64,000 nt of DNA from Phaeobacter sp. J2-8 (lineage in GTDB: Bacteria > Pseudomonadota > Alphaproteobacteria > Rhodobacterales > Rhodobacteraceae): the NCBI RefSeq assembly GCF_022867865.1, contig NZ_JALIEC010000004.1:186001-250000 (forward strand). Direction: 5' to 3'. The position numbers and the translations under genes were made by a program. Positions 1-17,626 of the stretch are shown in pieces. Position 1 is the stretch's first letter. Every line of letters starts with the position of its first letter. Under the pieces are notes generated by a model, which saw nothing but the letters and a program-made list of their open reading frames with translations, was not told the origin of the DNA and searched no databases.

Positions 1-800
1 GCATGTGGTTTCGGGGCGCCGTAACGGCTTGGATCTCCGGCAATGCGATGGACCAAAGCCTCGTCATTCGCGGCCAAGGCAGCCTTGTCATCGCCAAGGC
101 ACAGCGCGGCGCGATCATAGGTAAAGACGAAATATTCCAACGGAACGCCCGTGACCATTTTCGGATTCACATAGCGTTGCCGCCGCTGCGTCAGCCGGAC
201 CGAGGCCGCCCCCAACATCGACAGGTCGGACGCAATCTCAAGCGCCGAGATCGACCCGCCAGCTACGATCACATGACGCCCGCGATACAGGTCCGGGTTC
301 TTGTAATCAAAACTGTGAACAATCCCACACTCACCCGTAAACGCCTCGGCTTCGGGGATCGGCGGGATCACCGGCTTATTGAACCGGCCGCTGGCAATGA
401 CAACGCGGGCAAAGGTTTCGGTCCGCGCCTCGCCGCCCTGCACAAACGTCAGGGCATAGCCCGCGTCTGTCTGTTCCATCATCGTCAAACGGCAACCGAA
501 CTCTGCACGCTCCAACAGCCCATGCGCGTCGGCGTAGCGGCGCATATAGGCCAATACCTGGGCATTATGCGGGAACAGCGGCGTGCCCTCGGGCCAGGGT
601 TGATCGGAAAACCGGGTGCCTTCACCGAAGGTATTTGTGACCATTCCCGGCCAGATACCACTGGCCGGATTGTCATGCGCCCATTGCCCGCCGGGGGCCT
701 CATGCGCTTCGAATATGCGCGGGCAAAAACCTTGCGCCTTTAGCCAGCGGGCGGCGGCAATGCCGCCCGGCCCCGCACCAATGATAGCGACCTCTTCCAT
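1..800 (-). CDS. Flavin-containing monooxygenase-like NAD(P)/FAD oxidoreductase (partial)
   Basis: About 266 residues are visible; the C-terminus lies beyond the window. The N-terminus carries an FAD-binding Rossmann fingerprint, IIGAGPGGIAAARWL, at residues 6-20. A second dinucleotide site (VIVAGGSISALEIASDL) follows near residue 160. Between them is FTGECGIVHSFDY, which resembles the FMO/Baeyer-Villiger signature FxGxxxHSxxY with two extra residues. Such enzymes hydroxylate N or S atoms or oxidise ketones with NADPH and O2; the substrate cannot be read from the sequence. It is the last visible gene of the operon that starts with the sulfatase at 9961, and it begins 7 bases after the SDR stop. 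Family assignment is good; the exact reaction is unknown. Confidence 0.82.
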   Translation of the reverse strand, partial: MEEVAIIGAGPGGIAAARWLKAQGFCPRIFEAHEAPGGQWAHDNPASGIWPGMVTNTFGEGTRFSDQPWPEGTPLFPHNAQVLAYMRRYADAHGLLERAEFGCRLTMMEQTDAGYALTFVQGGEARTETFARVVIASGRFNKPVIPPIPEAEAFTGECGIVHSFDYKNPDLYRGRHVIVAGGSISALEIASDLSMLGAASVRLTQRRQRYVNPKMVTGVPLEYFVFTYDRAALCLGDDKAALAANDEALVHRIAGDPSRYGAPKPH

Positions 801-807
801 GACGGTC

Positions 808-1551
808 TCAGTGGAAATAGATGCCACCACAGACGTTCAACGCCTGACCGGTGACAAAACGCGACTGATCCGAGGCGAAAAAGACGGCTGGGCCGACAAT
901 ATCGTCAGGATCACCCAGACGTTTCAGGGCGGCCACATTGGCCCAGTGGTCCATTGCCTCCTGCGTGCCAAGGTTTTCCTTGCCCATTTCGGTCAGGATA
1001 ATACCGGGGCAGATCGCGTTGACGGTGATACCGTCCATCCCCGCCTCTTGCGCGTAAACCCGTGTCAACGTGATGTCGACGGCCTTTGTCGCGGCATAAT
1101 GGCCTTGGGTCGGCACGCCCTGACGCCCGGCGATTGAGGCGATGTTGATGATCCGTCCGGCCTTGCGCGCCCGCATCTGCGGCAAGACGGCGTTGGTGAC
1201 AAGCAACACGCCCTTGGCGTTCACATCGAAATGCGCATCCCAGGTCTTTTCGTCCAGATCTTCCAACCGGCTGGGGATCAGAATGCCGGCGTTGTTGACC
1301 AGAATATCAATCTGCCCCGCTTCTGCCACGGCCGCTTCGACAGCGGCCTTGTCGGTGACATCCAGATGCAGCACGCGGGCCTTTTGACCCGTCGCCGCAA
1401 TGCGGTCACGCACCTTTTCCAAATCGGAATTCTGCCGTTCCAGATCGCTGATCACGACATCGGCGCCGTTTTCCGCCAGACCAACGGCAACAGCCGCACC
1501 AATTCCGCGCGAGGCCCCGGTAACGAAGGCGGTTTTTCCTGCAAGCATCAT
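808..1551 (-). CDS. SDR family NAD(P)-dependent oxidoreductase
   Basis: A 247-residue classical short-chain dehydrogenase/reductase. It shows the cofactor motif TGASRGIG near residues 12-19, NNAG near residue 85, the catalytic serine region NIASIAGRQG, and YAATK with the Tyr/Lys pair. The C-terminal QALNVCGGIYF is typical. I start at the ATG at 1551, which overlaps the PfkB stop as ATGA; the open frame extends upstream but that part reads as antisense. It probably oxidises or reduces a hydroxy/keto intermediate made by the neighbouring kinase/aldolase module or by the acyl-CoA module. Substrate unknown. Confidence 0.88.
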   Translation of the reverse strand: MMLAGKTAFVTGASRGIGAAVAVGLAENGADVVISDLERQNSDLEKVRDRIAATGQKARVLHLDVTDKAAVEAAVAEAGQIDILVNNAGILIPSRLEDLDEKTWDAHFDVNAKGVLLVTNAVLPQMRARKAGRIINIASIAGRQGVPTQGHYAATKAVDITLTRVYAQEAGMDGITVNAICPGIILTEMGKENLGTQEAMDHWANVAALKRLGDPDDIVGPAVFFASDQSRFVTGQALNVCGGIYFH

Positions 1552-2512
1552 GCCATTTCTCCCAAAGTTTCGCGCAGCGGCCAATTTTCCATTGCGGCGC
1601 AAGTGTCGTCGAATGAGGTCAACCGCCCCTGCGAGCCAAGGCCAAGCGCCACATGGGCGGCAACGGTATTGGCAAAACGGGCGCATTCGCGCAGCGACCA
1701 GCCCTTGGCCAGCCCCACGATGATGCCGGCGGTAAAGCTGTCCCCGCATCCGGTGGTGTCGATCACATCAATCCGGTGCGAAGGCAGATGAAACGGTGTC
1801 CCTTCGGCGGGATCGACATAGACCCCGTCCCCCTCAAGCGTCAGGATCGCGTTCTTGACCCCGCGTGCCTTGAACCAACGCGCGACAGCGGCGGGATCGG
1901 TTTCGCCAGACATCGCCGCGGCTTCGTGGATCGACGGCACGAAATAGTCGATATACGGGAGCAGCGGCAGCACCTTGGGGACGGTTTCGGCATTGGCCTG
2001 GATCAGGTCAAAGACGGTTGTACGCCCCATCGTTTTGGCACGTTTCAACAGATCGACCGATGCCGCGCCATCAAAGGCGTCCAGAAAGCCAGTGCCGCCA
2101 AGATGAATGATGCCTGCGTCCAGAATGCGCGCGATCTCTTCCTCGGTTGGCAGAAAGGTCTTGCTGGTGCCGGGCACAAAGAACGCCGCGCGTGCGCCAT
2201 TGGGCCGGATTGGCAACATGCTGCAAGAGGTCTGCTCGGTATCATCGCGCTGAAGCAGATCAAGGTTCAGACCGTATTTTGCCATGTCTGCTGCCAGAAA
2301 ATCGCCCATGGCGTCGCGTCCGATGCGCGCCGCAATCTGGCCATTCAGCCCGAGGATTGCGCAATCCACCGCAGTCGCGCCGGCGGTTCCGGCCACGGTC
2401 ATGGTAATTTCGTCAATGAATGTGGCCCCGCCGGGGGCGGAAGTTCGTCCGCATAGCGGCCAAGCACATCAAGCACCAAAAAGCCGACGGCGCTGAAATC
2501 ATAAGTTGGCAT
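1548..2512 (-). pseudogene. PfkB family carbohydrate kinase with apparent frameshift near the N-terminus
   Basis: The main frame (2402 down to 1548) encodes a ribokinase/PfkB-type kinase lacking its first strand. It has TVAGTAGATAVDCAILG, IGRDAMGDFL, and the C-terminal anion-hole/catalytic-base motif DTTGCGDSFTAGI. The missing N-terminus (MPTYDFSAVGFLVLDVLG) is encoded just upstream in another frame, from an ATG at 2512 with a GGAGG ribosome site 8 bases before it. The two frames would join in the G5 run at 2433-2437 if one base were added or two removed, restoring a PPxGG motif. The gene is therefore either a recent pseudogene or carries a sequencing error. It would phosphorylate a sugar or keto-sugar before cleavage by the adjacent class II aldolase. 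Confidence 0.8.
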
Positions 2513-2526
2513 TCTGTCGTCCTCCA

Positions 2527-3180
2527 TTATGCGTCGCTCAGGCCGTAGCCAGAGATCTTGTCGATAACGTCTTGAATTTGTTGGTCGCTCAGAAGTGGCG
2601 GTTCGCCCAATTGCAGACAGCCGTGGTATTGCCGCGCAAGGGTTTCCAGTTCTTCCGCCAGCCAGAACGCCTGAGCCAGATCACTGCCCGCCGCGATCAT
2701 GCCGTGGTGCGCCAGAAGACAGGCCTTGCGCCCTTCCATGGCTTGCAGCGCCAGACGGGACAGTTCCGCCGATCCGTAAATCGCATAGGGCGCACAGCGG
2801 ATATCCGGCCCGCCGAACACCGCAACCATGTAATGCAGCGGCGGAATGTCCCGGCCCATGATTGCCAGCGTGGTGCAAAAGGTCGGATGAGCGTGCAGCA
2901 CTGCGTTTTCTTCCGGGCGCGCGGCCAGAATATCGCGGTGAAAGCGCCATTCGCTGGACGGTTTCCACGGTCCATGCGGCGTGCCATCCATATCGAGATA
3001 GACAATATCCTCGGGCGTCAGGCTGTCGTAGGGGCGGCTTGTCGGCGTGATAAGAAGCCCGTCACCGTGACGCAGGCTTACATTGCCAGACGTGCCCTGG
3101 TTCAGCCCCGAGGCATTCATTTTCCGACAGCAATCTATGATTTCCTGCCGTTTGTCGTCTTCGTTTCGATTGTCCAGCAT
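2527..3180 (-). CDS. Class II aldolase/adducin family protein
   Basis: A 217-residue protein of the fuculose-1-phosphate aldolase/ribulose-5-phosphate 4-epimerase family. SGNVSLRHGDGLLITPTS is the usual phosphate-binding start, SSEWRFHRDIL holds the catalytic acidic residue region, and VLHAHPTFCTTLA plus LLAHHGMIA supply the metal-binding histidines. The start at 3180 is chosen because GGGAGGACACGGA precedes the ATG and the protein then matches family length; upstream frame is antisense of the MFS gene. With the PfkB kinase downstream it suggests phosphorylation of a ketose or aldonate-like compound followed by retro-aldol cleavage. The substrate is not determinable. Confidence 0.88.
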   Translation of the reverse strand: MLDNRNEDDKRQEIIDCCRKMNASGLNQGTSGNVSLRHGDGLLITPTSRPYDSLTPEDIVYLDMDGTPHGPWKPSSEWRFHRDILAARPEENAVLHAHPTFCTTLAIMGRDIPPLHYMVAVFGGPDIRCAPYAIYGSAELSRLALQAMEGRKACLLAHHGMIAAGSDLAQAFWLAEELETLARQYHGCLQLGEPPLLSDQQIQDVIDKISGYGLSDA

Positions 3181-3194
3181 TCCGTGTCCTCCCG

Positions 3195-4406
3195 TTATCG
3201 TTTGCCGCCCGCAAGCCGCGCCGCCTCTGGCTGGTTGCGAAGGATAAGCATGGCGGCCAGCCCGATGACCGGACCGGGCACAAGCACCAGAAACGTCCAG
3301 CGCCACCCGCCAAAAGCGTCTGCCACCACGGGCAAAAGCCAAATTGTGAAAATTGTGATCGCGAAACCCACGCCCATCTGAAACGCCAGCCCGGCCCCGA
3401 CCTGTGCCTGATCTGACAACTCGGTCACGGCGGCCGAAAATTGCGCACTGTCGGCCACGATGGTCAGCCCCCAGATCAGCGCGACGGTCAAAAACATCCA
3501 TGTCGGCGCATCAAACAGAAACCCGATCAAAAGCGCGCAACTGCCTGAAATGGCCATCGCCAGGGCTGTTGTAGCGCAGCGCCCGATCCGGTCGGCCAAT
3601 GCCCCTGCCAGAACGCACCCCGGTGCCCCCATTGCGACCACCGCAAAGGCCAGCAACGACGCATTGAGCGACCAGGATCCAGCAGCATTTGCCGCCGTGG
3701 CATAGGCCAGAAACCAGCCCCACATGGCGTAGAGCTCCCACATGTGGCCAAAGTACCCAAGGTTCGCCAGCATCACCGGACGATTGCGCAGGATTGCCCC
3801 GATCTGGCGCAGATCAACACGCGCCCGCGCGAAACCATGCGGCCCCTCGCGCAGTGCCGTTGCGAACACGACCGCCGCGCCGACCGTCGCAAGGCTGCTG
3901 ACGATCAGAACGCCCTGCCACGGAAATGTCGCCCCAAGCGCCCGCACCAGATGTGGCAGCGCCGATCCAAGCGTCAGCGCGCCCACCAAAGTCCCCATGG
4001 CAAGACCACGGCCCTGCACAAACCAGGTGGCAATGAACTTGAGCGCGGGGGGATAAATCCCGGCAAGCGCCACCCCGGTGACGAAACGGGCCGTAACGGC
4101 ACCCGTGATCCCCGGCTCCAGCAACAACACCGCATTTGCCAGCGCCGCCAGTATGGCCGCCCCGGTCATCAACCGCGTCATGGGCCAGACATCCGCCAGC
4201 GACATCACACTTGATGCCAATGCCCCAAGAACAAACCCCGCCTGCACGCCGTTTGTCAGCCAAGCCGCCTCTGCCGGGGTCAGGGACCAGCTTTTGCTAA
4301 GCTCGGGGATGATTGCCGTTGCCGAAAACCAGGTGGTCATCGACAAAACAACAGCCAATCCCGTCAGCGCCAAAGCGCGCCACTTATCGGTGTGGGCGCC
4401 GGTCAC
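3195..4406 (-). CDS. MFS transporter
   Basis: A 403-residue hydrophobic protein with about 12 membrane segments and MFS landmarks (SWSLTPAEAAWLTNGVQAGF early; ADRIGRCATTALA in the central loop). It starts at a GTG (4406) immediately after the MaoC stop (TAAGTG), so it is translationally coupled. Its place inside the catabolic operon suggests uptake of the substrate or export of an intermediate. It is 15 bases upstream of the aldolase gene. Confidence 0.85.
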   Translation of the reverse strand: MTGAHTDKWRALALTGLAVVLSMTTWFSATAIIPELSKSWSLTPAEAAWLTNGVQAGFVLGALASSVMSLADVWPMTRLMTGAAILAALANAVLLLEPGITGAVTARFVTGVALAGIYPPALKFIATWFVQGRGLAMGTLVGALTLGSALPHLVRALGATFPWQGVLIVSSLATVGAAVVFATALREGPHGFARARVDLRQIGAILRNRPVMLANLGYFGHMWELYAMWGWFLAYATAANAAGSWSLNASLLAFAVVAMGAPGCVLAGALADRIGRCATTALAMAISGSCALLIGFLFDAPTWMFLTVALIWGLTIVADSAQFSAAVTELSDQAQVGAGLAFQMGVGFAITIFTIWLLPVVADAFGGWRWTFLVLVPGPVIGLAAMLILRNQPEAARLAGGKR

Positions 4407-4859
4407 TTACAGACCTTCGAGCGGCATGGTATAGGTCGTGGCACTGCCCTCGACACAGATGTCTCCGGCCGCATCGACAACCGAAACCGCAAGTTCGCAA
4501 ATCGGCTTGTCACCCCGAACCGAGGTCACTTCGACCCGTCCGGTGATCTTTTCGCCAACGCCGACGGCCTTGCGGAAATTGAGGTTGGTGTTCAAAAACA
4601 CCGTGCCCGGTCCGGGCAGGTCTTCGGCAACGCAGGCATTGAGAATCCCGGTCGTGACACCGCCCTGCACAATCAGTTTGCCAAAGGGCGTTTTCTTGGC
4701 CAGCGCCTCGTCATAATGCACCGGGTTGCGATCACCGGTCATCGCGGTAAAGGCATGAATATCGCCCATCTCGGTGGTCCGGCTACGCTCGGACTTTTGG
4801 CCGACTGCGGGCTTGCCTGCCGTCACATTGGCCCAGCCGTCTTTTCCTGTGGTGCTCAT
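4407..4859 (-). CDS. MaoC family (R)-specific enoyl-CoA hydratase-like protein
   Basis: A 150-residue hot-dog fold protein. The hydratase-2 motif is intact: FTAMTGDRNPVHYDEALA, with the Asp/His catalytic pair, followed by KLIVQGGVTTGIL. Start at 4859 has GGAGATCAATCA before it and overlaps the DUF35 stop as ATGA. Expected reaction is hydration of an enoyl-CoA. Together with the downstream-coded DUF35 and thiolase-like proteins it resembles the MaoC / DUF35 / Ltp2 module that shortens steroid side chains by hydration and retro-aldol cleavage. That parallel is inference from gene order and family. Confidence 0.85.
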   Translation of the reverse strand: MSTTGKDGWANVTAGKPAVGQKSERSRTTEMGDIHAFTAMTGDRNPVHYDEALAKKTPFGKLIVQGGVTTGILNACVAEDLPGPGTVFLNTNLNFRKAVGVGEKITGRVEVTSVRGDKPICELAVSVVDAAGDICVEGSATTYTMPLEGL

Positions 4860-5281
4860 TGATTGATCTCCTCGGACAGTGTGAAACAAGGCAGCACGCG
4901 GCCACCAATATCTGTGGGGGCAAAAGCCAGCGTTGCACCGACCGTCGGCGTCCGTGCATTGGTCAGGATATGGCTGAGCATCGTTGGCCCTTCGGCCAGC
5001 TCAACAAGCCCGACAACATAGGGGGCCACCGGCGCCCAACCGGGATGCCCCGGCTTGTGAATGACCGAAAAACTTTTCAGCGTCGCGGCCCCGCTTGCCC
5101 GCACCCAGGTCAGCGCATCGGCCCAGCAGTGCGGGCAAATCGGACGCGGGTAGAAAACATAAGCGCCGCAATCGACACAGTTCTGGATCTTCAACACGCC
5201 ATCTGCCGCGCCTTGCCAGAAATGGGCGTTCAACGGTTCGTAAATCGGACCGGGAACCTTGAGTTGTGCAAGATCGTTCAT
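4856..5281 (-). CDS. Zn-ribbon/OB-fold DUF35 protein (acyl-CoA-associated)
   Basis: A 141-residue protein with a rubredoxin-like zinc ribbon, CVDCGAYVFYPRPICPHC (two CxxC pairs), then an OB-fold region containing VAPYVVGLVELAEGPTMLS. DUF35 proteins usually partner a thiolase-superfamily protein coded next to them, and in the steroid pathway are needed for Ltp2-type aldolase activity. The start at 5281 overlaps the stop of the thiolase-like gene as ATGA, supporting a complex of equal stoichiometry. Confidence 0.85.
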   Translation of the reverse strand: MNDLAQLKVPGPIYEPLNAHFWQGAADGVLKIQNCVDCGAYVFYPRPICPHCWADALTWVRASGAATLKSFSVIHKPGHPGWAPVAPYVVGLVELAEGPTMLSHILTNARTPTVGATLAFAPTDIGGRVLPCFTLSEEINQ

Positions 5282-6441
5282 GACGCGCCTCCAAGAACCA
5301 ATGCCACGGCTTCGCTCATCGTGGCGCCGTTGCCGGTGACCAAAGCGGTGTTGCACCCGGCGATCTGTCGTCCGGGCGTGTCACCCCGGATCTGGCGCAC
5401 GGCCTCCACCACATGTGTCATGCCACCCGCCAGATCGGGTTGACCAAAGCCAAGCTGCCCGCCATGTGTGTTGATCGGCTGACGCGCATCCGATCCCATG
5501 CCGCCATTGTCCCGCAGCCACTGCCCGAATTTCCCCGGTGCGCAAAGACCGGCGTCTTCAATCGTGGCGGCCAGCATGATGGTGTAGCAGTCGTAAAAGC
5601 TCAGAAAATCCACCTGAGCCACGTCCATCCCCGCCTGCCCCAACGCGCGGGCAATGGAGGGCTTCAACGGCCCCGAGGTAAGATCCGGCGCTTGGCTGAC
5701 CGCACGGTGGGTGACCTTTTCACCCGCACCCAACAGATGCACGGAACGGTGCGGCCCCTTGGCGGCGCGTTCGGCTGTGGTGACAATCACCGCTTCACCG
5801 CCGGCCACCGGCATGACGATTTCAAACAAATGCAGAGGTGAGGCGATCATCGGCGAGGCCAGAACATCGTCAACACTGGCCGGAGCACCATGGAAAATAG
5901 CCGCCGGGTTAAATTGAGCATTTGCTCGCGATCCAGCGGCCAGGGCGGCATAGTCTTCGGGCTTACATCCGTAGCGGGCCATATGGGCCTGCATCAGCAG
6001 CGCATAGGATGTGTTGGCCCCCGACGCCCCGAACGGCGTGTCGAATTCACGCGCAGGGTTTCGATTTGGCGACCGTGGCGCAACCGGATTGCGATGATTG
6101 CCCAGAACGCAAAGCACGGTCTCGCACTGACCCGCCGCAATCGCCGCCGCCGCGCGCCAGATCATGCCAGGGCCAGAGGCTCCGCCCAGATCGACCATAT
6201 TGGCCATCGTCGGCTGCATCCCGAAATATTCGGCCACGGCTGCGGGCACATGCTGCGGTGTTTCGCCGACCTGCGGACCGACCAGAAGCCCGTCAACCTC
6301 GGACGGCGCAAGTCCGGCATCGGCAATCGCCTCCGCCGATACGCGCATGAGCATATCCATCGTCGCGACATCTTCTGTGCGGCGCTGCGGCGTCAGCTCT
6401 CCTATGCCGCTGATTGCGGCACGCGGGGACAGGTGCCTCAT
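5278..6441 (-). CDS. Thiolase-superfamily (SCP-x/Ltp2-like) protein
   Basis: A 387-residue lipid-transfer/thiolase-like protein. The fold is clear (DGLLVG, FLSFYDCYTIM, GNGATMSEAVALVLG). The segment that normally holds the nucleophilic cysteine reads VDLGGASGPGM (about residues 83-93) with no cysteine, and the usual GHP histidine site reads GFGQP after NTHGG at residues 324-328. These losses argue against true thiolysis and fit Ltp2-type retro-aldolases, which work with a DUF35 partner. ATGA overlaps link it to both the upstream acyl-CoA synthetase and the downstream DUF35 gene. Confidence 0.85.
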   Translation of the reverse strand: MRHLSPRAAISGIGELTPQRRTEDVATMDMLMRVSAEAIADAGLAPSEVDGLLVGPQVGETPQHVPAAVAEYFGMQPTMANMVDLGGASGPGMIWRAAAAIAAGQCETVLCVLGNHRNPVAPRSPNRNPAREFDTPFGASGANTSYALLMQAHMARYGCKPEDYAALAAGSRANAQFNPAAIFHGAPASVDDVLASPMIASPLHLFEIVMPVAGGEAVIVTTAERAAKGPHRSVHLLGAGEKVTHRAVSQAPDLTSGPLKPSIARALGQAGMDVAQVDFLSFYDCYTIMLAATIEDAGLCAPGKFGQWLRDNGGMGSDARQPINTHGGQLGFGQPDLAGGMTHVVEAVRQIRGDTPGRQIAGCNTALVTGNGATMSEAVALVLGGAS

Positions 6442-8390
6442 AGCGATGCCTCCCTGTCCAGCGCGCGGTATTCGTCAAGACATTCGGGATTGGCAAGAGA
6501 ACTCAGGTTTTTCACCACCCCTCCGGCCAGCGCGGTGCGCGCCGCCCCCTCAACGCGCTTGCCGTTGATTGTATAGGGAATATCGGCCACCACATGGACC
6601 CGTGCCGGAACATGGCGGGGCGAGGCTTCGGCGCGGATTTGTGTGCGCAGCTGAGCAACAAGTTCCGCGTTGATTGCAACCCCCGGCACCGGTTTGAGCG
6701 CAAGAACAACCTCTTCATCACCCTCATGCGCCGCGCCGAAGACAAGAAAGTCTTCCAGGGCGCGCTGGCGTTCACACACCGCATAGATTTCGGAAATTCC
6801 GATACGAACGCCGCCGGGCTTTAGCGTGTTGTCTGATCGACCGTGAACAATTGCACCACCCAAGGGCCGGATCTCTGCCACGTCGCCATGTGTCCAAACT
6901 TCGCGGCGATCCCCGAAATAGGTGTCGCGATACCGCGTGTCGCCGCCTTCGCCCCAAAACGTCAGCGGCATGGAGGGAAACGGCTCTGTGCACACCAATT
7001 CGCCCCGACGCCCGACAACCGGCGCGTCACGGTCGTCGAATACGGCTATGGCATGGCCAAGCGCCGGCACTGTCAGCTTGCCGCGCCGCACCGGATGCAA
7101 GGGAGAGCCAATCAGAAAGCACCCAAGAATTTCGGTGCCGCCAGAGATCGACGCAAACATCATGTCCCGTTTGACCGCGTCATACGCCCAGTCGAACTGA
7201 TGCGGCAGACAGGGCGCACCGCACACCATCAACGACCGGAGCGACGACAGGTCATGACGTGCGCCGGGGTGGTATTCCTCGGCCTCCAGCGTGGCGAGGT
7301 ATTTCGGGCTGGTGCCGAAATGCGTAACCTTGACCTGCTCGGCCAATTTCCAAAGCGGCGCGGGGTCAAGCCCATCTGCCGTCTTCAGGATCGGCGCGCC
7401 ATCATACAGAACCACAGCCGCCCCCGCACCCAACGCGGAAACCATCCAGTGATACATCATCCAAGCGGTATTTGTGTACCAGAACACGCGATCCTGCGGA
7501 CGCACATCGCCGTGCAACACGTGTTCTTTGAGGTGCTGCATCAGCACGCCGCCGGCGCGATGGACAATGGCCTTTGGCGCGCCTGTCGTGCCGGATGTGT
7601 AAAGGATATAGGCCGGATGATCGAAAGGCAGCCTTGTGAAATCCGGCTCCATATCGCCCTCGCCTGCACCGAAATCGGCAAAAGCGGTTGCTGTGGCATC
7701 GGCCATTTCGCCTTCGCCGCTAATCACAAGGGTCTTGATTTCAGGCACTTGCGCCAGAACCTCGGCGATCCGCCCGGCAATGTCATGCATCCGACCACCG
7801 TAGCGATAGGTCGGCGCAGCAAAGAGAACCTTTGGCTCGACCTGCCCGATCCGGTCCACAATCGCGGCGGTTCCGAAATCGGGCGAACATGATGTCCAGA
7901 CCGCACCGATGCTAAGGCTGGCAAGCAAAGCCACCAAACCGTCTGCGGTATTTGGCATCACGCCGGCAACCCGATCCCCGGCCACAACACCCGCCGCACG
8001 CAGGCCCGCTGCGACCCGCCCGACCTCTGCGCGCAACGCCCCACGGGTCAACGATGTCACTGCGCCCAGCTCGTCGGATGAATAGACGGCGATATCGCCT
8101 GGCTCACCCTTCAACAGGTTTTCGGCCAAATTCAAACGGGCCTGCGGGAAAAACTGTGCGCCGGTCATCCATGCGGCATCGTCAGGCACAAAGGCTGTTT
8201 CGCCCTTGTCGCCCATAACACCGCAGAAGTCCCACAGCGCCGACCAAAATGCGCCAAGGTCCGAGACCGACCAACGGTGAAGCCCCTCGTAATCCGCCGG
8301 ATCAAACCCGTTGGCACGGGCGAATTTCGCCAGTGCCGTTTGCGTGGATGCTTCGGCGGGGGGTGTCCATAGAATATCTGTATCCGGCAT
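6438..8390 (-). CDS. Acetoacetate--CoA ligase-like acyl-CoA synthetase
   Basis: About 650 residues, ANL superfamily. The P-loop-like AMP motif YILYTSGTTGAPKAIVH lies near residue 260, with FASISGGTEILGCF and the downstream GVRIGISEIY core. The long N-terminal part (SALWDFCGV, ARLNLAENLL) is characteristic of acetoacetyl-CoA synthetases. I prefer the ATG at 8390, which has GGAG 8 bases upstream, over the GTG at 8396 overlapping the sulfatase stop. It would activate a carboxylate liberated after desulfation or import, feeding the thiolase/MaoC/DUF35 module. The true substrate may be a different short or branched acid. Confidence 0.88.
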   Translation of the reverse strand: MPDTDILWTPPAEASTQTALAKFARANGFDPADYEGLHRWSVSDLGAFWSALWDFCGVMGDKGETAFVPDDAAWMTGAQFFPQARLNLAENLLKGEPGDIAVYSSDELGAVTSLTRGALRAEVGRVAAGLRAAGVVAGDRVAGVMPNTADGLVALLASLSIGAVWTSCSPDFGTAAIVDRIGQVEPKVLFAAPTYRYGGRMHDIAGRIAEVLAQVPEIKTLVISGEGEMADATATAFADFGAGEGDMEPDFTRLPFDHPAYILYTSGTTGAPKAIVHRAGGVLMQHLKEHVLHGDVRPQDRVFWYTNTAWMMYHWMVSALGAGAAVVLYDGAPILKTADGLDPAPLWKLAEQVKVTHFGTSPKYLATLEAEEYHPGARHDLSSLRSLMVCGAPCLPHQFDWAYDAVKRDMMFASISGGTEILGCFLIGSPLHPVRRGKLTVPALGHAIAVFDDRDAPVVGRRGELVCTEPFPSMPLTFWGEGGDTRYRDTYFGDRREVWTHGDVAEIRPLGGAIVHGRSDNTLKPGGVRIGISEIYAVCERQRALEDFLVFGAAHEGDEEVVLALKPVPGVAINAELVAQLRTQIRAEASPRHVPARVHVVADIPYTINGKRVEGAARTALAGGVVKNLSSLANPECLDEYRALDREASL

Positions 8391-8395
8391 CACCA

Positions 8396-9961
8396 CTACT
8401 CCGCCGGAACCGCAACAGGGGCCGCAGCCGCCGGCGCGACCGAGGTCAGACCCAATCGGTCCATCTGTTCCTCTGGATAGCCTTCTTCATCCAGCCGCAG
8501 GCGAAGCAAGCGTAGCAGACGGTCACGCTGCTCGGGCTGGGTCTCCCAAAGGTTTGTCAGCTGCTCGGGATCTTCGGCCCGGTTGAACAGGAAGTTTTCA
8601 TAGGTCCGCGGATCAATGGTGATCGGCGTTTTCCACATCGGATACTCTACGGTCGGATCATATTTTCCGGTCGCCTCAGGTTCTGGCGGCAATGCGCCCA
8701 CCCGCCCGTCAATCGGATTATCCACCAGCAAAGGCCGGGTGATCATGGTCGAATAGGTGTTCAGCACCTTGCCCTTCTCGGGCGATTTGAACAGCGTCCA
8801 ATCCCCATCCGAGATACAGGCCCCCTGCCCGAACGTGCCATAGATTGCTTCGTCTCGGATGGCTTCACGGCGTTCCAGAATCGGCAGGAAGCTCCGGGAA
8901 TGGCGCGTGCTGTCCGGCGGTGTGCCGCCCGACGCCTCGATGATGGTCGAAAAGATATCGACGGTTTGCGTGATTTCGGGAATCCGACGGCCGCCGTTTT
9001 CGGCACCGGGGTGCCAGACGATCATCGGAATATTCGCGTGGCTGTCGTAATGTGGATATTGCTTGCCGAAATGCCCGCGCTCACCCAGATCGTGACCGTG
9101 ATCGGTGGTAAAGATCACCAGCGTGTCTTCCCACAGCCCCTTTTCCCCAAGCTTGTCGAGAAGCACGCCCATCCATTTGTCGACCATCGTGGTCTTGCCG
9201 TAATATTGCGCCTTCAGATAGGCGAGCTCTTCTGGCGTGGCTTGCTCCATAAAGGCATCAAGGTCGTCGTAAACCTGATAGGGCGGCCAGATGTTGTGGT
9301 CGTCCGCCGTGCCCTCGATACCGTCGGTGTACATCGAGGCATAGGGCTCGGGCACATGAAACGGCTCGTGCACATCAAAGGTCTCAACCTGAAGGAAGAA
9401 CGGCCCGCGATCCGAATACCGATCAAGCCAATCCGCCGCGGCCGAGAAGGTCTTGGCCGGGAAGAAATCCTCTTCGCCGCCAAATTCCTTAATATTCTCA
9501 TAGTATTGCCGCATGTGGTAAGGTGAGCGGTGCTCGCTCATCTTCTCGACCCATTTTGGCACGTCGCCTTTGGTGTCGGGCAAGCGGTGAAAGTCTGTCT
9601 CGTGGCCACGGATCATTTCAAGCGACTGGAATCCTTGGATGTAACCGTTCGCCGTCTCCTCCCAATAATGGTAGTGATCGGTGACCATGCCCGTGTTGTA
9701 CCCTTGGGCCTGCACTTCGCGCGGCAGGCGCGGGTCGAACACCTCAAGCGGGCCCCAGGGACGCCACATGAATTCCTTGCGCCCGGTAAAGATCTCGCGG
9801 CGGGCGGGCATGCACGGCAGGCTGCCGATATAATGATTGTCGAAGACACAGGCGCGATCGGCCAGAGCATCAATATTGGGCGTCCGGCAGCGCGTCTTGG
9901 GATTGTAGCACCGCAGCGCTTCCTTGTTCAGGCTGTCTACCAGAATCAGGATGATATTCAT
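8396..9961 (-). CDS. Type I sulfatase
   Basis: A 521-residue alkaline phosphatase-superfamily sulfatase. The formylglycine motif is CMPARREIFTG with Cys50, matching CxPxR....G. The N-terminal metal site is ILVDSLN (Asp9, where many sulfatases have two Asp), and the second metal motif TTDHGHDLGERGHFGK spans residues 285-300. No signal peptide is seen, so the enzyme is probably cytoplasmic and acts after import. A formylglycine-generating enzyme must be supplied from outside the window. It is the first gene of the leftward operon and diverges from a sulfonate-type ABC importer, which fits a role in freeing sulfate from an imported sulfate ester. Phosphonate monoester hydrolase activity is an alternative. 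Confidence 0.88.
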   Translation of the reverse strand: MNIILILVDSLNKEALRCYNPKTRCRTPNIDALADRACVFDNHYIGSLPCMPARREIFTGRKEFMWRPWGPLEVFDPRLPREVQAQGYNTGMVTDHYHYWEETANGYIQGFQSLEMIRGHETDFHRLPDTKGDVPKWVEKMSEHRSPYHMRQYYENIKEFGGEEDFFPAKTFSAAADWLDRYSDRGPFFLQVETFDVHEPFHVPEPYASMYTDGIEGTADDHNIWPPYQVYDDLDAFMEQATPEELAYLKAQYYGKTTMVDKWMGVLLDKLGEKGLWEDTLVIFTTDHGHDLGERGHFGKQYPHYDSHANIPMIVWHPGAENGGRRIPEITQTVDIFSTIIEASGGTPPDSTRHSRSFLPILERREAIRDEAIYGTFGQGACISDGDWTLFKSPEKGKVLNTYSTMITRPLLVDNPIDGRVGALPPEPEATGKYDPTVEYPMWKTPITIDPRTYENFLFNRAEDPEQLTNLWETQPEQRDRLLRLLRLRLDEEGYPEEQMDRLGLTSVAPAAAAPVAVPAE

Positions 9962-10046
9962 GAGTTCTCTCTCCCCGGTTGCCCCCGCCCGCTGCGCCTT
10001 TGGCGGCGCGCGATACGCGGGAGGGCTAGCGTTCTTTCTGGCCACA

Positions 10047-10062
10047 TCTGATTATGTCCAGA
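10047..10062. promoter_or_regulatory. Operator-like dyad, site A
   Basis: TCTGATTATGTCCAGA, an interrupted inverted repeat (TCTG-N8-CAGA), lies in the 222-base divergent region between the sulfatase and the ABC importer. A second copy is at 10114. The shared consensus is TCTGRTTATRYYCAGA. The HutC-type GntR at 13258 is the obvious candidate binder; this is inference. Confidence 0.5.
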
Positions 10063-10113
10063 AATCCATGATCCGGTGATATACAAGAATTTTATGTTTG
10101 AAAAGAAAAAAGA

Positions 10114-10129
10114 TCTGGTTATACTCAGA
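10114..10129. promoter_or_regulatory. Operator-like dyad, site B
   Basis: TCTGGTTATACTCAGA repeats the TCTG-N8-CAGA layout of site A and shares most of the spacer. Centres of the two sites are 67 bases apart, about six helical turns, which would allow a looped or cooperative complex controlling both divergent operons. It extends to ATCTG...CAGAT at this copy. Confidence 0.5.
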
Positions 10130-10183
10130 TTTATTCGGCGTCGATGGACGCTGGCCAATGAGGATCACGGGAGGAGAATCCGA

Positions 10184-11221
10184 ATGACGAATTCCAGAAA
10201 CAGCTACATCAGCCGCCGCAGTCTTTTGCGCACCGGCGTTGCCGCCGCAGCCACCACACTTGCCGCGCCTACATTCTTTGCGGGCAAGGCGCATGCCGCC
10301 AATGAGACCCTGAATATCGGCATCATCCCCGCCTATTCCTTCGGCCTTTACTGGCTGATCCAGGATCAGGGTATGGCGCCCGGAATCGACATGAATTTCA
10401 GCGTCTTTCCTTCGGGGCCGCCCGCGATCGAAGCGATGGTGGGCCGGTCGGTTGACGCCATCACAGTGGGGTCCGTGCCGCCGCTCGCAGCGATGCACCG
10501 CAAGGTCGCCGATTTCCGTGAAATCTCGGTCTGTGGGGATGCCAGCGGGCTGTTCACCGTGGTTGGACGCAAGGGAATCAATACCTTGGCCGATCTTGAG
10601 GGCAAGCGGATTGCCGTCACGTCCGGCTCCAACTTTGATTTCTTCCTCGATACCGTGCTCAAGGCCGAGGGTCTTGAAGACATGCCGCTCAACCGAATCA
10701 ACATGGAGCCAATCGACGGCCAGGCCGCGTTGGTCGCCGGGGCGGTCGATGCCAATGTCCCACTGGCAACCTCGCGCAAACTTATCTTTGACGCACTGCC
10801 AGATGCCAGCCTGATCGTCGACGGGCTGAAACTGCCGCTGGCCACCCGGCCAAGCATCATGGACGTCCTGATGACGACCCAACAGACAATGGATGCCAAG
10901 GAAGACGCGCTGAAGCAGGTTGTTGGCGCCTTCCATCGGGAAGCCGTACCGATGCTGCGCAATGACAACGCCACAGTCATCGACCGTATGGTGGCATGGC
11001 AATCCGGGATCGGACGGGCAGGCGTCACCGCATCAGATGTCGAACCGCTGTTGAACAGCTATTTCTACTTCGACACGGACGAAATCAAAGACGTCTATGC
11101 CTCTGGCCAACTGAAGAAATCGCTTCAGGTGCAGTCGGAATTCCTGGTTGCGAACGACCGTATCGGCGGCATTCCCGATCTCGATGCGCTCGTCTCGGAC
11201 CAGATTGTCCGTCAACTCTGA
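10184..11221 (+). CDS. ABC transporter substrate-binding protein, sulfonate/nitrate/taurine type, Tat-exported
   Basis: A 345-residue periplasmic binding protein of the NrtA/SsuA/TauA (NMT1-like) class. The N-terminus has a twin-arginine signal, SRRSLLRTG, a hydrophobic stretch and an AHA cleavage site near residue 37. NIGIIPAYSFGLYWLIQDQG and VDAITVGSVPPLAAM match the ligand-binding lobe of this family. The start at 10184 is preceded by GGGAGGAGAATCCG; an open frame further upstream has no ribosome site. It begins a three-gene importer and diverges from the sulfatase operon, so a sulfonate or sulfate ester is the likely ligand, though aromatic or pyrimidine ligands occur in the family. Confidence 0.85.
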   Translation: MTNSRNSYISRRSLLRTGVAAAATTLAAPTFFAGKAHAANETLNIGIIPAYSFGLYWLIQDQGMAPGIDMNFSVFPSGPPAIEAMVGRSVDAITVGSVPPLAAMHRKVADFREISVCGDASGLFTVVGRKGINTLADLEGKRIAVTSGSNFDFFLDTVLKAEGLEDMPLNRINMEPIDGQAALVAGAVDANVPLATSRKLIFDALPDASLIVDGLKLPLATRPSIMDVLMTTQQTMDAKEDALKQVVGAFHREAVPMLRNDNATVIDRMVAWQSGIGRAGVTASDVEPLLNSYFYFDTDEIKDVYASGQLKKSLQVQSEFLVANDRIGGIPDLDALVSDQIVRQL

Positions 11222-11235
11222 AAAAGGTCACGACA

Positions 11236-11263
11236 CAGGCAGTGGCGGTGAGCGCCCTGCCTG
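11236..11263 (+). other. Intercistronic hairpin between binding protein and permease
   Basis: CAGGCAG-T-GGCG-loop-CGCC-CTGCCTG forms an 11-bp stem with one bulge, 14 bases after the binding-protein stop. There is no T-tract, so it more likely protects the upstream mRNA or partly attenuates, giving more binding protein than permease. Confidence 0.5.
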
Positions 11264-11367
11264 ATCCTGCACGGGCGTCCGGAAATTCCGGCGTGCCCAT
11301 CCGCTGTTTCGGTGCCATGCTGTGCAAAGCGCCGTTTGCGGATCGAACCCACAAGTGGATCTGAGCT

Positions 11368-12186
11368 ATGGATAAAACAGAAACATTGCCACGGGACACA
11401 ATCATGCCACTACGCGGATTGAAAAACCGATTGTCGGGTCGGCTGGTGCTGGGGGCAGCATCGGTGGCCACGGTCATTCTCGCCTATGTCTGGATTACGA
11501 ACCTGCCCAACAACAACCCTGCCCTGCTGCCCCCGATCCGGGACATTGTCGGTGCATTCTTTACCAATGTCGCCAGCGGAAATTTGGCCACCGCACTTGG
11601 GGCCAGTCTGTTCCGGGTCATCATGGGCTTCTTCATTGGCACCAGTTTGGCGGTCCTGATCGGCTGTCTGATCGGCTGGTACAAAGTTGCGGAATACCTG
11701 TTTGACCCGCTGATCGAAGCGGTGCGCCCGATCCCGCCGCTTGCCTATATCCCAATCATCATCATCTGGTTTGGCATTGGCGAATTCAGCCGCATTCTGA
11801 TCATCACGATTGCCTGCTTCATGGTCTGCGTTGTCAACGTGATCGCGGGCATGAAGAACGTGCCACAAGTCTATGTTGATGCCGCATCAACCATGGGCGC
11901 AACCCGGTTGCAGGTCTTTCGGACCGTCGCCGTGCCCGCGGCAACCCCCTTTATCATCACCGGCTATCGCATCGCTCTTGGCGCGGCCTGGACCACGCTT
12001 GTCGCATCCGAACTGATTGCGGCGCAAAACGGTCTTGGCTTCCTGCTGCAGGAGGGGCGGCGCTACTTCCTGACGGATCAGGTGATGATGATCATCGTAA
12101 TAATCGGCGCCTGCGCCTTCTTGATGGACCGAGCTTTCAGGAAGATTCAGGCGCGTCTCATGGTTTGGTCGGAGGCTCGCGAATAA
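11368..12186 (+). CDS. ABC transporter permease, SsuC/TauC/NrtB type
   Basis: A 272-residue BPD_transp_1 permease with about six membrane segments. The EAA loop is DAASTMGATRLQVFRTVAVP (near residues 170-190), and YIPIIIIWFGIGEFSRI is typical for this family. The chosen ATG at 11368 has only a weak upstream GGATCTGAG; an in-frame ATG at 11404 is a possible alternative. The stop overlaps the ATPase start as TAATG. Confidence 0.87.
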   Translation: MDKTETLPRDTIMPLRGLKNRLSGRLVLGAASVATVILAYVWITNLPNNNPALLPPIRDIVGAFFTNVASGNLATALGASLFRVIMGFFIGTSLAVLIGCLIGWYKVAEYLFDPLIEAVRPIPPLAYIPIIIIWFGIGEFSRILIITIACFMVCVVNVIAGMKNVPQVYVDAASTMGATRLQVFRTVAVPAATPFIITGYRIALGAAWTTLVASELIAAQNGLGFLLQEGRRYFLTDQVMMIIVIIGACAFLMDRAFRKIQARLMVWSEARE

Positions 12187-12941
12187 TGTCGGAAATCGTA
12201 GTAGACAATCTAACCCACACGTTCGGCAAGGGCAGCGCGTCACCGCTGACGGTGCTGGACGGTATCAACCTGAAACTGGAATCCGGCAGCTTCAACGCCA
12301 TTGTCGGCACCTCTGGCTGTGGCAAGTCCACATTGCTCAAGATGATGGCGGGCCTGTTCGATCCCTCCGACGGGCAGATGACACTGGACGGCGAAGTCAT
12401 CCAAGGCACCGACCGTCGCCGGGGCATGGTGTTCCAACAGGATGCGGTTTTCCCCTGGATGACCGTCGCGCGCAACGTCAGTTATGGTCCGCGCCTGCGC
12501 GGCGCCAGCCGGGCAGAGCAGGCCGAAATCGAGGAAAAGTGGATCCGCATGGTCGGATTGACCGGGTTTGAGGATCGCTGGCCCCGCGAATTGTCCGGCG
12601 GTATGCGCAAACGGGTCGACATCGGGCGCGTCTATGCCAACGACCCCGACGTGCTGTTGATGGACGAACCGTTTGGCGCGCTTGACGCGCAAACCAAGGA
12701 ACGGATGCAGTCCGACCTGCTTGAAACCTGGTCAGCGACCCGCAAAACCGTCGTCTTCGTAACACATGATCTGGAAGAGGCGATTTTCCTGGCCGACAAG
12801 ATCATCGTCATGTCCGCGCGCCCCGGCCGCGTTCATCATATCGAAGAGGTGTCCCTGCCCCGGCCGCGTACCAATGACATGCGCCTGACCGACGATTTCC
12901 TTGCGATCAAACGCCGTCTCTGGGCGATGCTTGAACATTAA
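12186..12941 (+). CDS. ABC transporter ATP-binding protein, SsuB/TauB/NrtD type
   Basis: A 251-residue ABC ATPase. Walker A is GTSGCGKST, the Q-loop lies in GMVFQQDAVFPWM, the signature is ELSGGMRKRVDIGR, Walker B is VLLMDEPFGALD and the H-loop is VTHDLEEAI. The FPWMTV segment is characteristic of the sulfonate/nitrate/taurine subfamily. It starts at the TAATG overlap with the permease and ends the importer operon. Confidence 0.9.
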   Translation: MSEIVVDNLTHTFGKGSASPLTVLDGINLKLESGSFNAIVGTSGCGKSTLLKMMAGLFDPSDGQMTLDGEVIQGTDRRRGMVFQQDAVFPWMTVARNVSYGPRLRGASRAEQAEIEEKWIRMVGLTGFEDRWPRELSGGMRKRVDIGRVYANDPDVLLMDEPFGALDAQTKERMQSDLLETWSATRKTVVFVTHDLEEAIFLADKIIVMSARPGRVHHIEEVSLPRPRTNDMRLTDDFLAIKRRLWAMLEH

Positions 12942-13257: not shown

Positions 13258-14094
13258 TTGAATGTGAGCAGACCAAATACCAAATCGGGCCGCTCAGGTC
13301 GCCCCAGCTTCGAACAATCGGACGGACTTGCAACCGCAGCATTCCGGCGTGAGGTCAGCCGGATCGTATTGTCGCGCGAAGTCACCTCTCCGCTGTGGAC
13401 CCAGTTGAGCGACCAATTGGAAAACCTGATCCTCAGCGGCAAGCTGGCACCGGAATCCCGCATACCCTCTGAATCCGCCCTCTGCGACATTTTCAATGTA
13501 TCCCGGCCAGTGGTGCGCAGCGCCATCAGCGCCCTGGCGGCCCGCGGTCTGGTCAACAAACTGCCGCGCAAGGGCATGTTCGTCGGCAAACCACCCCGCG
13601 AAAGCAGCTTTGTCACCTCGAACGTCAGCCTGTTTGATGACATGATCGCGCGTGGGGCCAAAATCCGCACCCGCACTTTCGAGCTGGCAAAATCCCTTGC
13701 CAACGACGAGGAACGTGCCGCTTTGCAACTGGGCGACACGGCCGAGGTCGTCCGGGTGTCCCGTGTTTTCTGGGTCGACGAAGAGCCGATTACCTATACC
13801 AATATTTCCTTTCCAGCAGAGAAAGTGCCGGGTTTCGAAAAAACCGATCTGGAAGGGCGATCTGTTCTCGGCATGGTTCAAGAGATGTATCAACGGCAAC
13901 TGGTCAGGGCAGAGCGCTGGTTCTCAGCCGCCATGCCCAACGCGGATGTGTGCGAAAAAATGGACATTTCCGCCGACAAACCGCTTATTTGGATTGAATC
14001 CGTCGGGTATGAAAACGACGGCACGCCACTGGAATATTACCGCGCTTTCTATAACAGCCAGGCCGCGCGGATACACATATCGGTGTCGAACTGA
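13258..14094 (+). CDS. GntR family regulator, HutC/UTRA type
   Basis: About 278 residues. A winged-helix domain (LWTQLSDQLENLILSGKL, then IPSESALCDIFNVSRPVVRS) is followed by a UTRA ligand-binding domain (VSRVFWVDEEPITYTNISFP; PLEYYRAFYN near the C-terminus). The start is uncertain: TTG at 13258, GTG at 13264 or a site further in, and the first 30 residues are low-complexity. It follows the sulfonate-type importer in the same direction and probably senses the imported compound or a derivative to control the divergent operons. Confidence 0.85.
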   Translation: MNVSRPNTKSGRSGRPSFEQSDGLATAAFRREVSRIVLSREVTSPLWTQLSDQLENLILSGKLAPESRIPSESALCDIFNVSRPVVRSAISALAARGLVNKLPRKGMFVGKPPRESSFVTSNVSLFDDMIARGAKIRTRTFELAKSLANDEERAALQLGDTAEVVRVSRVFWVDEEPITYTNISFPAEKVPGFEKTDLEGRSVLGMVQEMYQRQLVRAERWFSAAMPNADVCEKMDISADKPLIWIESVGYENDGTPLEYYRAFYNSQAARIHISVSN

Positions 14095-14484: not shown

Positions 14485-15399
14485 TCACGTGGCACGATGG
14501 TACACTTCTGACAGCGATCCTACCAACTCTCGTACAAACAGATCCATCAACCCGGTTGAGCGCCGACCGATCCGGGTCGCGAGGACGAACTGAGAATTCA
14601 GTACCGCCTCCTCACCCAGTAGGCATCTCAAATTGCCACGGTCCAGGCGATCCATCACAAAGTGGTCGGGAAGGTATCCGATGTAGTCCCCTGAAAGAAT
14701 GAACATGGCCTGCACTTCCATATGATCTGCCAAGGTACCGACATGCGCATTTGGGAAGCGATCCAGTTCGATCAAATTCCCGTAGTTGCGGGCAACGAAG
14801 GTTTGATTTGCCACCAAGCTTTCAGAGATTTCACGATCCGGGACATCAAACAGCACATGACCCTTCGCGCAATATAACGAGTGCCGTTCGACATAGAGTT
14901 TGGACATTTTCACACCGGCGACAGGCCGTGTTTGCGGCATGATGGCCACATCAATATTCCCGCTTGAAACATCGGCCGCCAGCACCTGAGGGTCATCCAC
15001 AGAAATCTGGATCTCAGCTTCAGGGGCCAGTCTGCGCAGCCGATTGATGATCCTTGGCAACGGAAGGCCATCAAAAGATAAGGTGTTGTCGATAATACCC
15101 AGCCGTAGGGTGCCAACCACCCGATCTCTCAAGCTGCCAATCTCGCCTTCAAAGTCGTTAAGGGCAATGAAGAGTTCTGTAGATTTCTGATGAACAAGCT
15201 TCCCGCGTTCCGTCAGGCGAAACCCGCCACGACCGCGTTCACACAATGTAAACCCAAGGCGCGTTTCCAGGGCCTTCATATGGAAGCTGACCGTCGATTG
15301 AGACATGCCAAGCTCCGCCTGCGCCCCCACAAAACCGCCCCGTTCAACAACCGCGCGAAAGACGGCCAGTGATCTTAGATCTGAATTTGCGAAATTCAA
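14485..15399 (-). CDS. LysR family transcriptional regulator
   Basis: A 304-residue LysR protein. The HTH is in the first 60 residues (FRAVVERGGFVGAQAELGMS; STVSFHMKALETRLGF), followed by a substrate-binding domain starting VVGTLRLGIIDN. It is divergent from the amino acid importer at 15505, with 105 bases between them, so it most likely activates that operon. A dyad AATC-C-TTCGATATGAA-GATT sits at 15407-15426 in the gap. Confidence 0.9.
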   Translation of the reverse strand: MNFANSDLRSLAVFRAVVERGGFVGAQAELGMSQSTVSFHMKALETRLGFTLCERGRGGFRLTERGKLVHQKSTELFIALNDFEGEIGSLRDRVVGTLRLGIIDNTLSFDGLPLPRIINRLRRLAPEAEIQISVDDPQVLAADVSSGNIDVAIMPQTRPVAGVKMSKLYVERHSLYCAKGHVLFDVPDREISESLVANQTFVARNYGNLIELDRFPNAHVGTLADHMEVQAMFILSGDYIGYLPDHFVMDRLDRGNLRCLLGEEAVLNSQFVLATRIGRRSTGLMDLFVRELVGSLSEVYHRAT

Positions 15400-15406
15400 T
15401 ACATCT

Positions 15407-15426
15407 AATCCTTCGATATGAAGATT
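15407..15426. promoter_or_regulatory. Possible LysR binding dyad
   Basis: AATCCTTCGATATGAAGATT is an imperfect palindrome with a single extra base, placed just ahead of the LysR start and 80 bases before the divergent importer. The position suits an autoregulatory LysR site; the match is only suggestive. Confidence 0.3.
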
Positions 15427-15504
15427 AACTCATAGCTATTTTACTGATGCTTTAGAAGCCCTACGGTCAACTCAACACTGCTTTGACCATGAAATAGGGA
15501 TTCC

Positions 15505-16320: not shown

Positions 16321-16326
16321 ATCGAC

Positions 16327-17625: not shown

Positions 17626-17626
17626 G

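Follow-up and report, generated by a model that had tools for sequence, protein, structure and literature searches.

Conserved gene neighborhoods point to a probable catabolic pathway for a small sulfated sugar-like compound in Phaeobacter sp. J2-8

In a 64,000-nucleotide stretch of the Phaeobacter sp. J2-8 genome (G000:C12:186001-250000, hereafter the window), a leftward gene cluster joins a sulfatase, a PfkB-type sugar kinase and a FucA-like class II aldolase to an acyl-CoA cassette of ligase, Sal-type thiolase-fold protein, DUF35 protein and MaoC-type hydratase, and diverges from an Ssu/Tau-like ATP-binding cassette (ABC) importer. We conclude that these genes probably encode a single catabolic pathway, presumably under the control of a GntR-type regulator, for a small sulfated sugar-like compound. 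The evidence consists of gene content, co-inheritance in other genomes and plasmids, a shared palindrome and conserved catalytic residues. Small organic sulfates are a component of marine organic matter about which little is known, and to our knowledge few routes for their uptake and breakdown have been worked out.

All ten of the leftward genes listed in a preliminary description of the window were found, and so was the divergent importer. The intergenic gaps from the sulfatase to the aldolase gene measure 5, -4, -4, -4, 0 and 14 bp with the start codons that we chose, and by this spacing the leftward genes read as the single transcription unit that had been claimed. The unit extends 3.3 kb past the left edge of the window (stretch L085), which supplies the rest of the flavin monooxygenase (FMO) gene and, beyond it, genes for an aldehyde dehydrogenase (ALDH) and a true acetyl-CoA acetyltransferase (thiolase). 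Inspection by eye agreed with the earlier assignment of a cytoplasmic sulfatase, which has no signal peptide, and of a Tat-exported importer, whose binding protein has the twin-arginine leader SRRSLLR. The label "sulfonate-type" fits this importer only at the level of the transporter superfamily, as its binding protein does not reach the cut-off of the SsuA model TIGR01728 (88.7 versus 163.5 bits); the sulfatase, in turn, points to a sulfated substrate.

The thiolase-fold protein has as its nearest solved relative CtSal, the aldolase of bile-acid side-chain breakdown in Comamonas testosteroni. According to PMC12329534, CtSal uses Tyr302 and Cys304 of a YDCY motif, together with Gly89 and Gln347/Gln352. 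Read against that paper, the alignment with 9MYR places a YDCY motif (Tyr283, Cys285), a glycine at the position of the thiolase cysteine (Gly87) and an activating glutamine pair (Gln329, Gln334) in the window protein, and these residues are identical in 14 of 14 other cassettes. The protein had been described as a cysteine-less, Ltp2-like thiolase homologue. The first part holds for the nucleophile position, which Gly87 occupies, but not for the YDCY cysteine, Cys285, whose counterpart is catalytic in CtSal; the Ltp2 label had to be dropped, as YDCY stands in place of the YDHF motif of Ltp2. We therefore predict a Sal-type retro-aldolase rather than an Ltp2 protein, and conservation of the CtSal catalytic residues suggests retro-aldol cleavage with release of acetyl-CoA, not thiolysis. 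The zinc-ribbon cysteine pattern of the DUF35 protein is likewise kept in 14 of 14 other cassettes, and GDRNPVHYD, which we take to be the MaoC hydratase motif, is present in the window and in 13 of the 14 (L006 was unmatched). The ligase exceeds both curated cut-offs for acetoacetate--CoA ligases (Table 1).

On the sugar side, the sulfatase combines a Sulfatase domain with the C-x-P-x-R site (CMPAR) of formylglycine-type (S1) enzymes, and the Phaeobacter genome (G000) holds two matches over cut-off to the FGE family of sulfatase maturation. It scores far below the cut-off of the choline-sulfatase model (115 versus 433 bits). The class II aldolase aligns with FucA at Glu73, presumably the catalytic residue, and at His92, His94 and His155, presumably the zinc ligands, and falls short of the FucA equivalog TIGR01086 (228.6 versus 400.25 bits). 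The kinase, scored on a truncated frame, lies below the cut-off for IolC (5-dehydro-2-deoxygluconokinase, TIGR04382; 99.6 versus 300 bits). The best NCBIfam match of the FMO is ArsO (80 versus 425 bits); an arsenosugar sulfate, considered as substrate because of this match, was left unsupported, ars genes not having been searched for. Across the same genome, 38 stretches match the window sulfatase at E<=0.001 (C3, C10, C11, C12, C14, C17), several of them clustered, and so sulfatase-rich a genome may attack sulfated polysaccharides too.

We fetched loci around orthologous sulfatases, using the sulfatase as query and keeping the best 80 of 106, and counted neighbors at fixed identity thresholds. 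The importer binding protein occurs in 19 of the 80 loci, the FucA-like aldolase in nine, PfkB in eight, the short-chain dehydrogenase/reductase (SDR) in 10, FMO in five and a GntR relative (at least 39% identity) in nine. The ligase-Sal-DUF35-MaoC cassette is found in three, namely L006 (Roseibium), L031 and L048 (Ruegeria), all of which belong to the nine with a FucA-like aldolase. In 46 of the loci the sulfatase reaches 54% identity or more, and 27 of these carry the FucA-like or a second class II aldolase; this importer was found in none of the 34 loci with a more distant sulfatase. The sulfatase itself is rare (3 of 292 sampled genomes of the order at E<=1e-130), and the gene set is spread over isolates, metagenome-assembled genomes and SAR116 assemblies.

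The sugar genes and the cassette also occur together on plasmids. A search of 72,556 plasmid records, with loci first fetched by Sal, gave a Sal orthologue at 69-73% in eight alphaproteobacterial records from five genera, some of them near-duplicates. Searches with the aldolase and the SDR remove the bias of the Sal query for these loci: the aldolase ranked the same eight first (59.7-67%), followed by a ninth record (59.1%) with a nucleoside-type cluster and no listed Sal, and the SDR ranked them first as well, with nine records found in all. Each of the eight carries ligase-Sal-DUF35-MaoC-MFS (MFS, major facilitator superfamily), thiolase (61-64% identical), a GntR relative (43-50%), aldolase, PfkB and SDR, with a ribose-type ABC importer placed between aldolase and kinase; this content was taken from annotation for five and from protein matches for all eight. 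The plasmid of Sulfitobacter dubius has FMO and ALDH too, ordered as in the window. The stretches fetched from these core plasmids gave no match to the sulfatase, and since they carry a sugar importer instead, the core there appears to process an unsulfated compound, the sulfatase and the Ssu importer apparently taking the place of the sugar importer in the window lineage. In trees of a chosen subset of sequences (46 sulfatases, 18 aldolases), one branch of the unrooted aldolase tree (98/96) parts the sulfatase-linked from the plasmid group, and cassette presence is patchy inside the former. A 59% aldolase relative on plasmid p_3 of Rhizobium lusitanum (L112) lies with a sugar kinase, RpiB, a nucleoside hydrolase and a BMP-family ABC importer; these genes may form a route from (deoxy)nucleoside ribose to dihydroxyacetone phosphate (DHAP).

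The cassette can also lie away from the sulfatase within one genome. Whole genomes of the nine aldolase-bearing loci gave one Sal match at 69-82% in six, and in three of these (the genomes of L005, L010 and L012) the match is remote from the sulfatase. In the L005 genome, the nearest relative, thiolase and ligase-Sal-DUF35-MaoC-MFS are thus placed, on a contig of the length of the sulfatase contig (83,699 bases) and so probably on that very contig; the L012 genome has ligase, Sal, DUF35, MFS, MaoC, thiolase, FMO and a 79% aldolase within 19 kb; and that of L010 has ligase-Sal-DUF35 close to a contig end. The Sal orthologue is rare by genome sampling. Within the order, 292 genomes gave matches in 4 at E<=1e-60, of which two have an orthologue at 82-100% (G000, from which the window comes, and G251) and two match at 36-39%; among 385 genomes at class level, G000 alone matches at E<=1e-75. 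The preliminary description had staked its single-pathway idea on the genes recurring elsewhere, and they do so in sulfatase loci, whole genomes and plasmids; synteny and whole-genome co-occurrence rule out an accident of one genome. The L012 genome also unites parts of different locus variants in one stretch (L137), where the cassette lies with FMO (52%), a relative of the FucI/SftI-like isomerase of SAR116 (48%) and the second, 79% aldolase.

A palindrome links several of these loci. We searched for a strict word, TCTGGTTATAACCAGA, and a variant, TCTGATTATAATCAGA, allowing up to 3 mismatches to either. The window holds only two sites, both in the gap between sulfatase and importer, where 0.02 were expected. 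Site pairs 66-67 bp apart occupy the same gap in L005, L006, L007, L048 and the window, and L010 and L011 have single sites. In eight of eight core plasmids TCTGGTTATAACCAGA stands, with 0-2 mismatches, between gntR and the first SDR (SDR1), before the core sugar genes; in Mesorhizobium it also precedes the ligase (2 mismatches), and L048 has a further site before the ligase that matches the variant only. In three plasmids the strict word at 2 mismatches occurs at four places, all at the core locus, versus none for the control. The Phaeobacter genome has eight places versus five for the reversed word, and its sole 2-mismatch place is site 2. Related palindromes are present in L014 and L021. 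The weight rests on the conserved pair and the plasmid sites, and we presume the palindrome to be a candidate GntR operator, perhaps bound by the regulator listed in Table 1.

Table 1. Features of the predicted pathway locus, in window coordinates
Feature	Position	Strand	Basis
FMO, cut by window edge	1..830	-	Pfam FMO-like PF00743 E 6.6e-25; 488 aa in L085
SDR oxidoreductase SDR2, 247 aa	808..1551	-	Pfam adh_short_C2; matched in 9 plasmid records, the eight core plasmids among them
PfkB-family sugar kinase, apparently frameshifted	1548..2512	-	Pfam PfkB; frame comparison; two split matches
Class II FucA-like ketose-1-phosphate aldolase, 217 aa	2527..3180	-	PDB FucA E 2e-62; Glu and three His aligned
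MFS carrier of cassette	3195..4406	-	Pfam MFS_1; also after maoC in G251 and 8 core plasmids
MaoC-type hydratase, motif GDRNPVHYD	4407..4859	-	Pfam MaoC_dehydratas E 5e-18
DUF35 / ChsH2-C protein, C-x2-C-x10-C-x2-C zinc ribbon	4856..5281	-	Pfam OB_ChsH2_C, zf-ChsH2
Predicted Sal-type retro-aldolase, thiolase fold (Gly87, Y283-D-C285-Y, Gln329, Gln334)	5278..6441	-	Closest solved structure 9MYR (CtSal) E 4e-85
Acetoacetate-CoA-ligase-family acyl-CoA ligase	6438..8390	-	NCBIfam NF002937 743 vs 639; TIGR01217 693 vs 521
Cytoplasmic formylglycine-type sulfatase, site C50-M-P-A-R54	8396..9961	-	Pfam Sulfatase E 1.8e-38; motif
Operator-like palindrome site 1	10047..10062	.	3 mismatches to TCTGGTTATAACCAGA
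Operator-like palindrome site 2	10114..10129	.	2 mismatches to TCTGGTTATAACCAGA
SsuA/TauA-like substrate-binding protein, twin-arginine leader	10184..11221	+	NCBIfam TIGR01728 E 3.8e-25, below cut-off
SsuC/TauC-like permease	11368..12186	+	Scan of window proteins
SsuB/TauB-like ATPase	12186..12941	+	Scan of window proteins
GntR/UTRA-like regulator, presumed palindrome binder	13258..14094	+	Scan of window proteins; relatives in 9 of 80 sulfatase loci and 8 core plasmids

From these genes we infer the reactions, their order, the role of the regulator and the kind of substrate, as follows. The Ssu-type ABC importer would take up the substrate and the sulfatase would strip its sulfate in the cytoplasm, after which the SDR may form or trim a ketose that the PfkB kinase would convert to a ketose-1-phosphate. 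The FucA-like aldolase would split this into DHAP and an aldehyde, and ALDH, in some strains FMO too, would turn the aldehyde into an acid; the MFS carrier would also permit uptake of the free acid. The acetoacetate-CoA-ligase-type enzyme is predicted to form the CoA thioester of the acid, MaoC to hydrate it, and the Sal-type/DUF35 aldolase to cleave a 3-hydroxyacyl-CoA to acetyl-CoA and a shorter aldehyde, with thiolase completing the breakdown of 3-oxoacyl-CoA. If this order is correct, the substrate probably has at least 7 carbons, because three leave as DHAP and the acid that enters the steps from ligase to thiolase probably has at least 4.

Other loci around orthologous sulfatases vary the enzymes. 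In type B loci the partners of the sulfatase are a different class II aldolase and an alcohol dehydrogenase, each present in 19 of the 80. Counts over all 80 loci are 21 for an FGGY kinase, 16 for a transketolase half, 18 for an FGE relative and 20 for a BisC-type reductase. Four SAR116-type loci combine the sulfatase with a non-orthologous ligase/DUF35/thiolase-fold set, DhaK/DhaL, a LacD-like aldolase and a distantly SftI-like isomerase, whose best NCBIfam match, SftI, is far below cut-off (118 versus 700 bits). That the same steps are supplied by different families beside orthologous sulfatases supports a sugar-like desulfated product. One of the four, L015, bears a Flavobacteriales label but shares 95-100% identity in its cluster genes with the SAR116 locus L016; it is probably a mis-binned contig. 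Apiose-like branched sugars were considered as possible substrates, because transketolase genes are split in type B loci and L009 has a ketol-acid-reductoisomerase-like gene.

Several observations weigh against a single pathway for the whole set. The pfkB gene is frameshifted in this assembly, where its open reading frame of 284 aa lacks the first ~36 codons, which lie upstream in another frame; either the assembly is wrong at this point or the gene has truly been lost. All eight pfkB orthologues counted among the sulfatase loci are uninterrupted, and other kinases of the Phaeobacter genome match PfkB at only 25-31%, or 43% over 58 residues. No acyl-CoA dehydrogenase was seen among the genes examined, so an enoyl-CoA for MaoC would have to come from elsewhere. 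The window palindromes carry 2-3 mismatches, 556 kb of unrelated loci contained 4 sites, and in the genomes of L005, L006, L007 and L048 the strict word at 2 mismatches occurs at five places, one of them at the operon, with three for the reversed control; neither word matched in L008, L012, L014, L021, L031, G251 or both Rhodococcus loci, nor at the three cassettes remote from the sulfatase. The cassette is missing from six of the nine aldolase-bearing sulfatase loci, and the genomes of L007, L011 and L014, which have the aldolase, gave no Sal match at E<=1e-60. Conversely, neither the aldolase nor PfkB was matched near the cassette in the 20 kb fetched from G251, where the neighbors are MTHFR, two GcvT-like demethylases and a TorT-like binding protein, or in the stretches fetched from the two Rhodococcus plasmids examined of three that matched.

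This distribution, together with the patchiness of the cassette on the aldolase tree, is what one would expect if two independent modules shared one operon, one for a sulfated sugar (importer, sulfatase, aldolase, kinase, SDR) and one for an unrelated imported organic acid (ligase, Sal, DUF35, MaoC, MFS). Against such a division, both halves are present in all eight core plasmids, a Sal orthologue occurs in six of the nine genomes with a sulfatase-linked aldolase (in three of them at another site), and in Mesorhizobium the palindrome precedes both the ligase and the sugar genes; with Rhizobiales and Rhodobacterales genomes sampled thinly for cassette versus aldolase, we consider two modules rather unlikely. 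Of the preliminary description, the idea of one catabolic pathway for a sulfated sugar-like molecule with an acid-yielding part is thus supported, with the acyl-CoA cassette as a separable module. A narrower role for the acid branch, disposal of acetoacetate by ligase and thiolase to acetyl-CoA with Sal, DUF35 and MaoC minor, would suit the ligase scores, the conservation of the thiolase in the eight core plasmids and the TIGR00366 protein beside the thiolase in Sulfitobacter. The intact Sal residues, DUF35 cysteines and MaoC motifs of the other cassettes, and the overlap of the Sal, DUF35 and MaoC genes with the ligase gene and each other in the window, make this improbable. Least probable by far is a steroid or bile-acid sulfate pathway, suggested by the resemblance to the MaoC-DUF35-Ltp2 set and by CtSal as closest solved relative: the ligase belongs to the acetoacetate family, importer and kinase suit a small hydrophilic molecule, and the DUF35 ribbon is of C4 type, not the C3H1 type said in PMC12329534 to shape bile-acid binding. 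Neither a steroid-CoA ligase nor an acyl-CoA dehydrogenase nor ring genes were found among the 16 window proteins scanned or, by eye, the L085 open reading frames, the genome not having been searched for them.

The single sulfated-sugar pathway that we favor resembles several known systems in part. Sulfoquinovose is degraded by sulfo-EMP and sulfo-TK pathways with an isomerase/kinase/aldolase logic, whereas the sulfatase here points to a sulfate ester rather than a sulfonate. Choline-O-sulfate and other cytoplasmic S1 systems pair a formylglycine-type sulfatase with a small-molecule importer; the window differs in its sugar-type downstream enzymes and its low score against the choline-sulfatase model. 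In L-fucose and 5-deoxypentose breakdown (the DHAP shunt), a kinase and a class II aldolase yield DHAP and an aldehyde, and the window shares the FucA-like aldolase and a sugar kinase but has a kinase of PfkB type, no isomerase recognized in the operon, a sulfatase, an Ssu importer and the acyl-CoA cassette. The CtShy-CtSal system, as described in PMC12329534, is alike in its Sal-type aldolase with YDCY and glycine for the nucleophilic cysteine, its DUF35 partner and its MaoC hydratase, whereas the window has MaoC and DUF35 as separate proteins, a C4 ribbon, an acetoacetate-type ligase, and a sugar kinase, aldolase and sulfatase as partners. Literature searches aimed at the gene set gave no description among the matches listed. 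The conserved set predicts that two aldolases with unrelated folds work in succession, the first on a sugar phosphate and the second on a CoA thioester, and suggests that Sal-type/DUF35 aldolases act outside steroid catabolism; the proteins and the candidate operator offer handles for finding the substrate.

The cassettes that stand alone have surroundings of their own. The five-gene cassette of G251 (L094, G251:C10, 3269-19321), which besides the demethylases and binding protein adjoins MTHFR and a ribose-type ABC importer, may belong to a pathway that handles a methylated acid, for instance gonyol, a sulfonium compound (PMC7221440), though this is only an idea. The Rhodococcus operons (L104, L100) comprise Sal (61%), DUF35, MaoC, an MFS carrier, thiolase and a ligase 30% identical to that of the window, perhaps a free-acid pathway in Actinobacteria. 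In Sulfitobacter, the protein adjoining the thiolase belongs to TIGR00366, presumably a family of short-chain fatty-acid carriers. Beside the sulfatase of close relatives no conserved counterpart was seen of the LysR gene that, with a polar amino-acid type ABC importer, lies downstream (window 14485-18409).

A more specific substrate, a sulfated sugar that carries a methylthio, methylsulfinyl or dimethylsulfonium group, is hinted at by several genes, and we regard it as doubtful. The hints are the BisC-type S/N-oxide reductase relative of the 20 loci mentioned above (one member at 820 versus a cut-off of 1018 bits), an SBP56 gene in L007 and L014 (692 bits to Pfam in L014; 160 versus 650 bits for the methanethiol oxidase MtoX), an O-acetylhomoserine sulfhydrylase over cut-off in L014 (581 versus 495), the resemblance of the G251 GcvT proteins to the dimethylsulfoniopropionate demethylase (143 and 167 versus a cut-off of 410) and the FMO inside the window operon. 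If true, this would add a new branch to marine organosulfur cycling, in which sulfate and methanethiol are freed together. In L014 (1677-4955 and 13089-14875) and L007 (15315-17500), SBP56, a 2Fe-2S ferredoxin and a CoA-binding protein, joined in L014 by the O-acetylhomoserine sulfhydrylase, lie beside the sulfatase operon.

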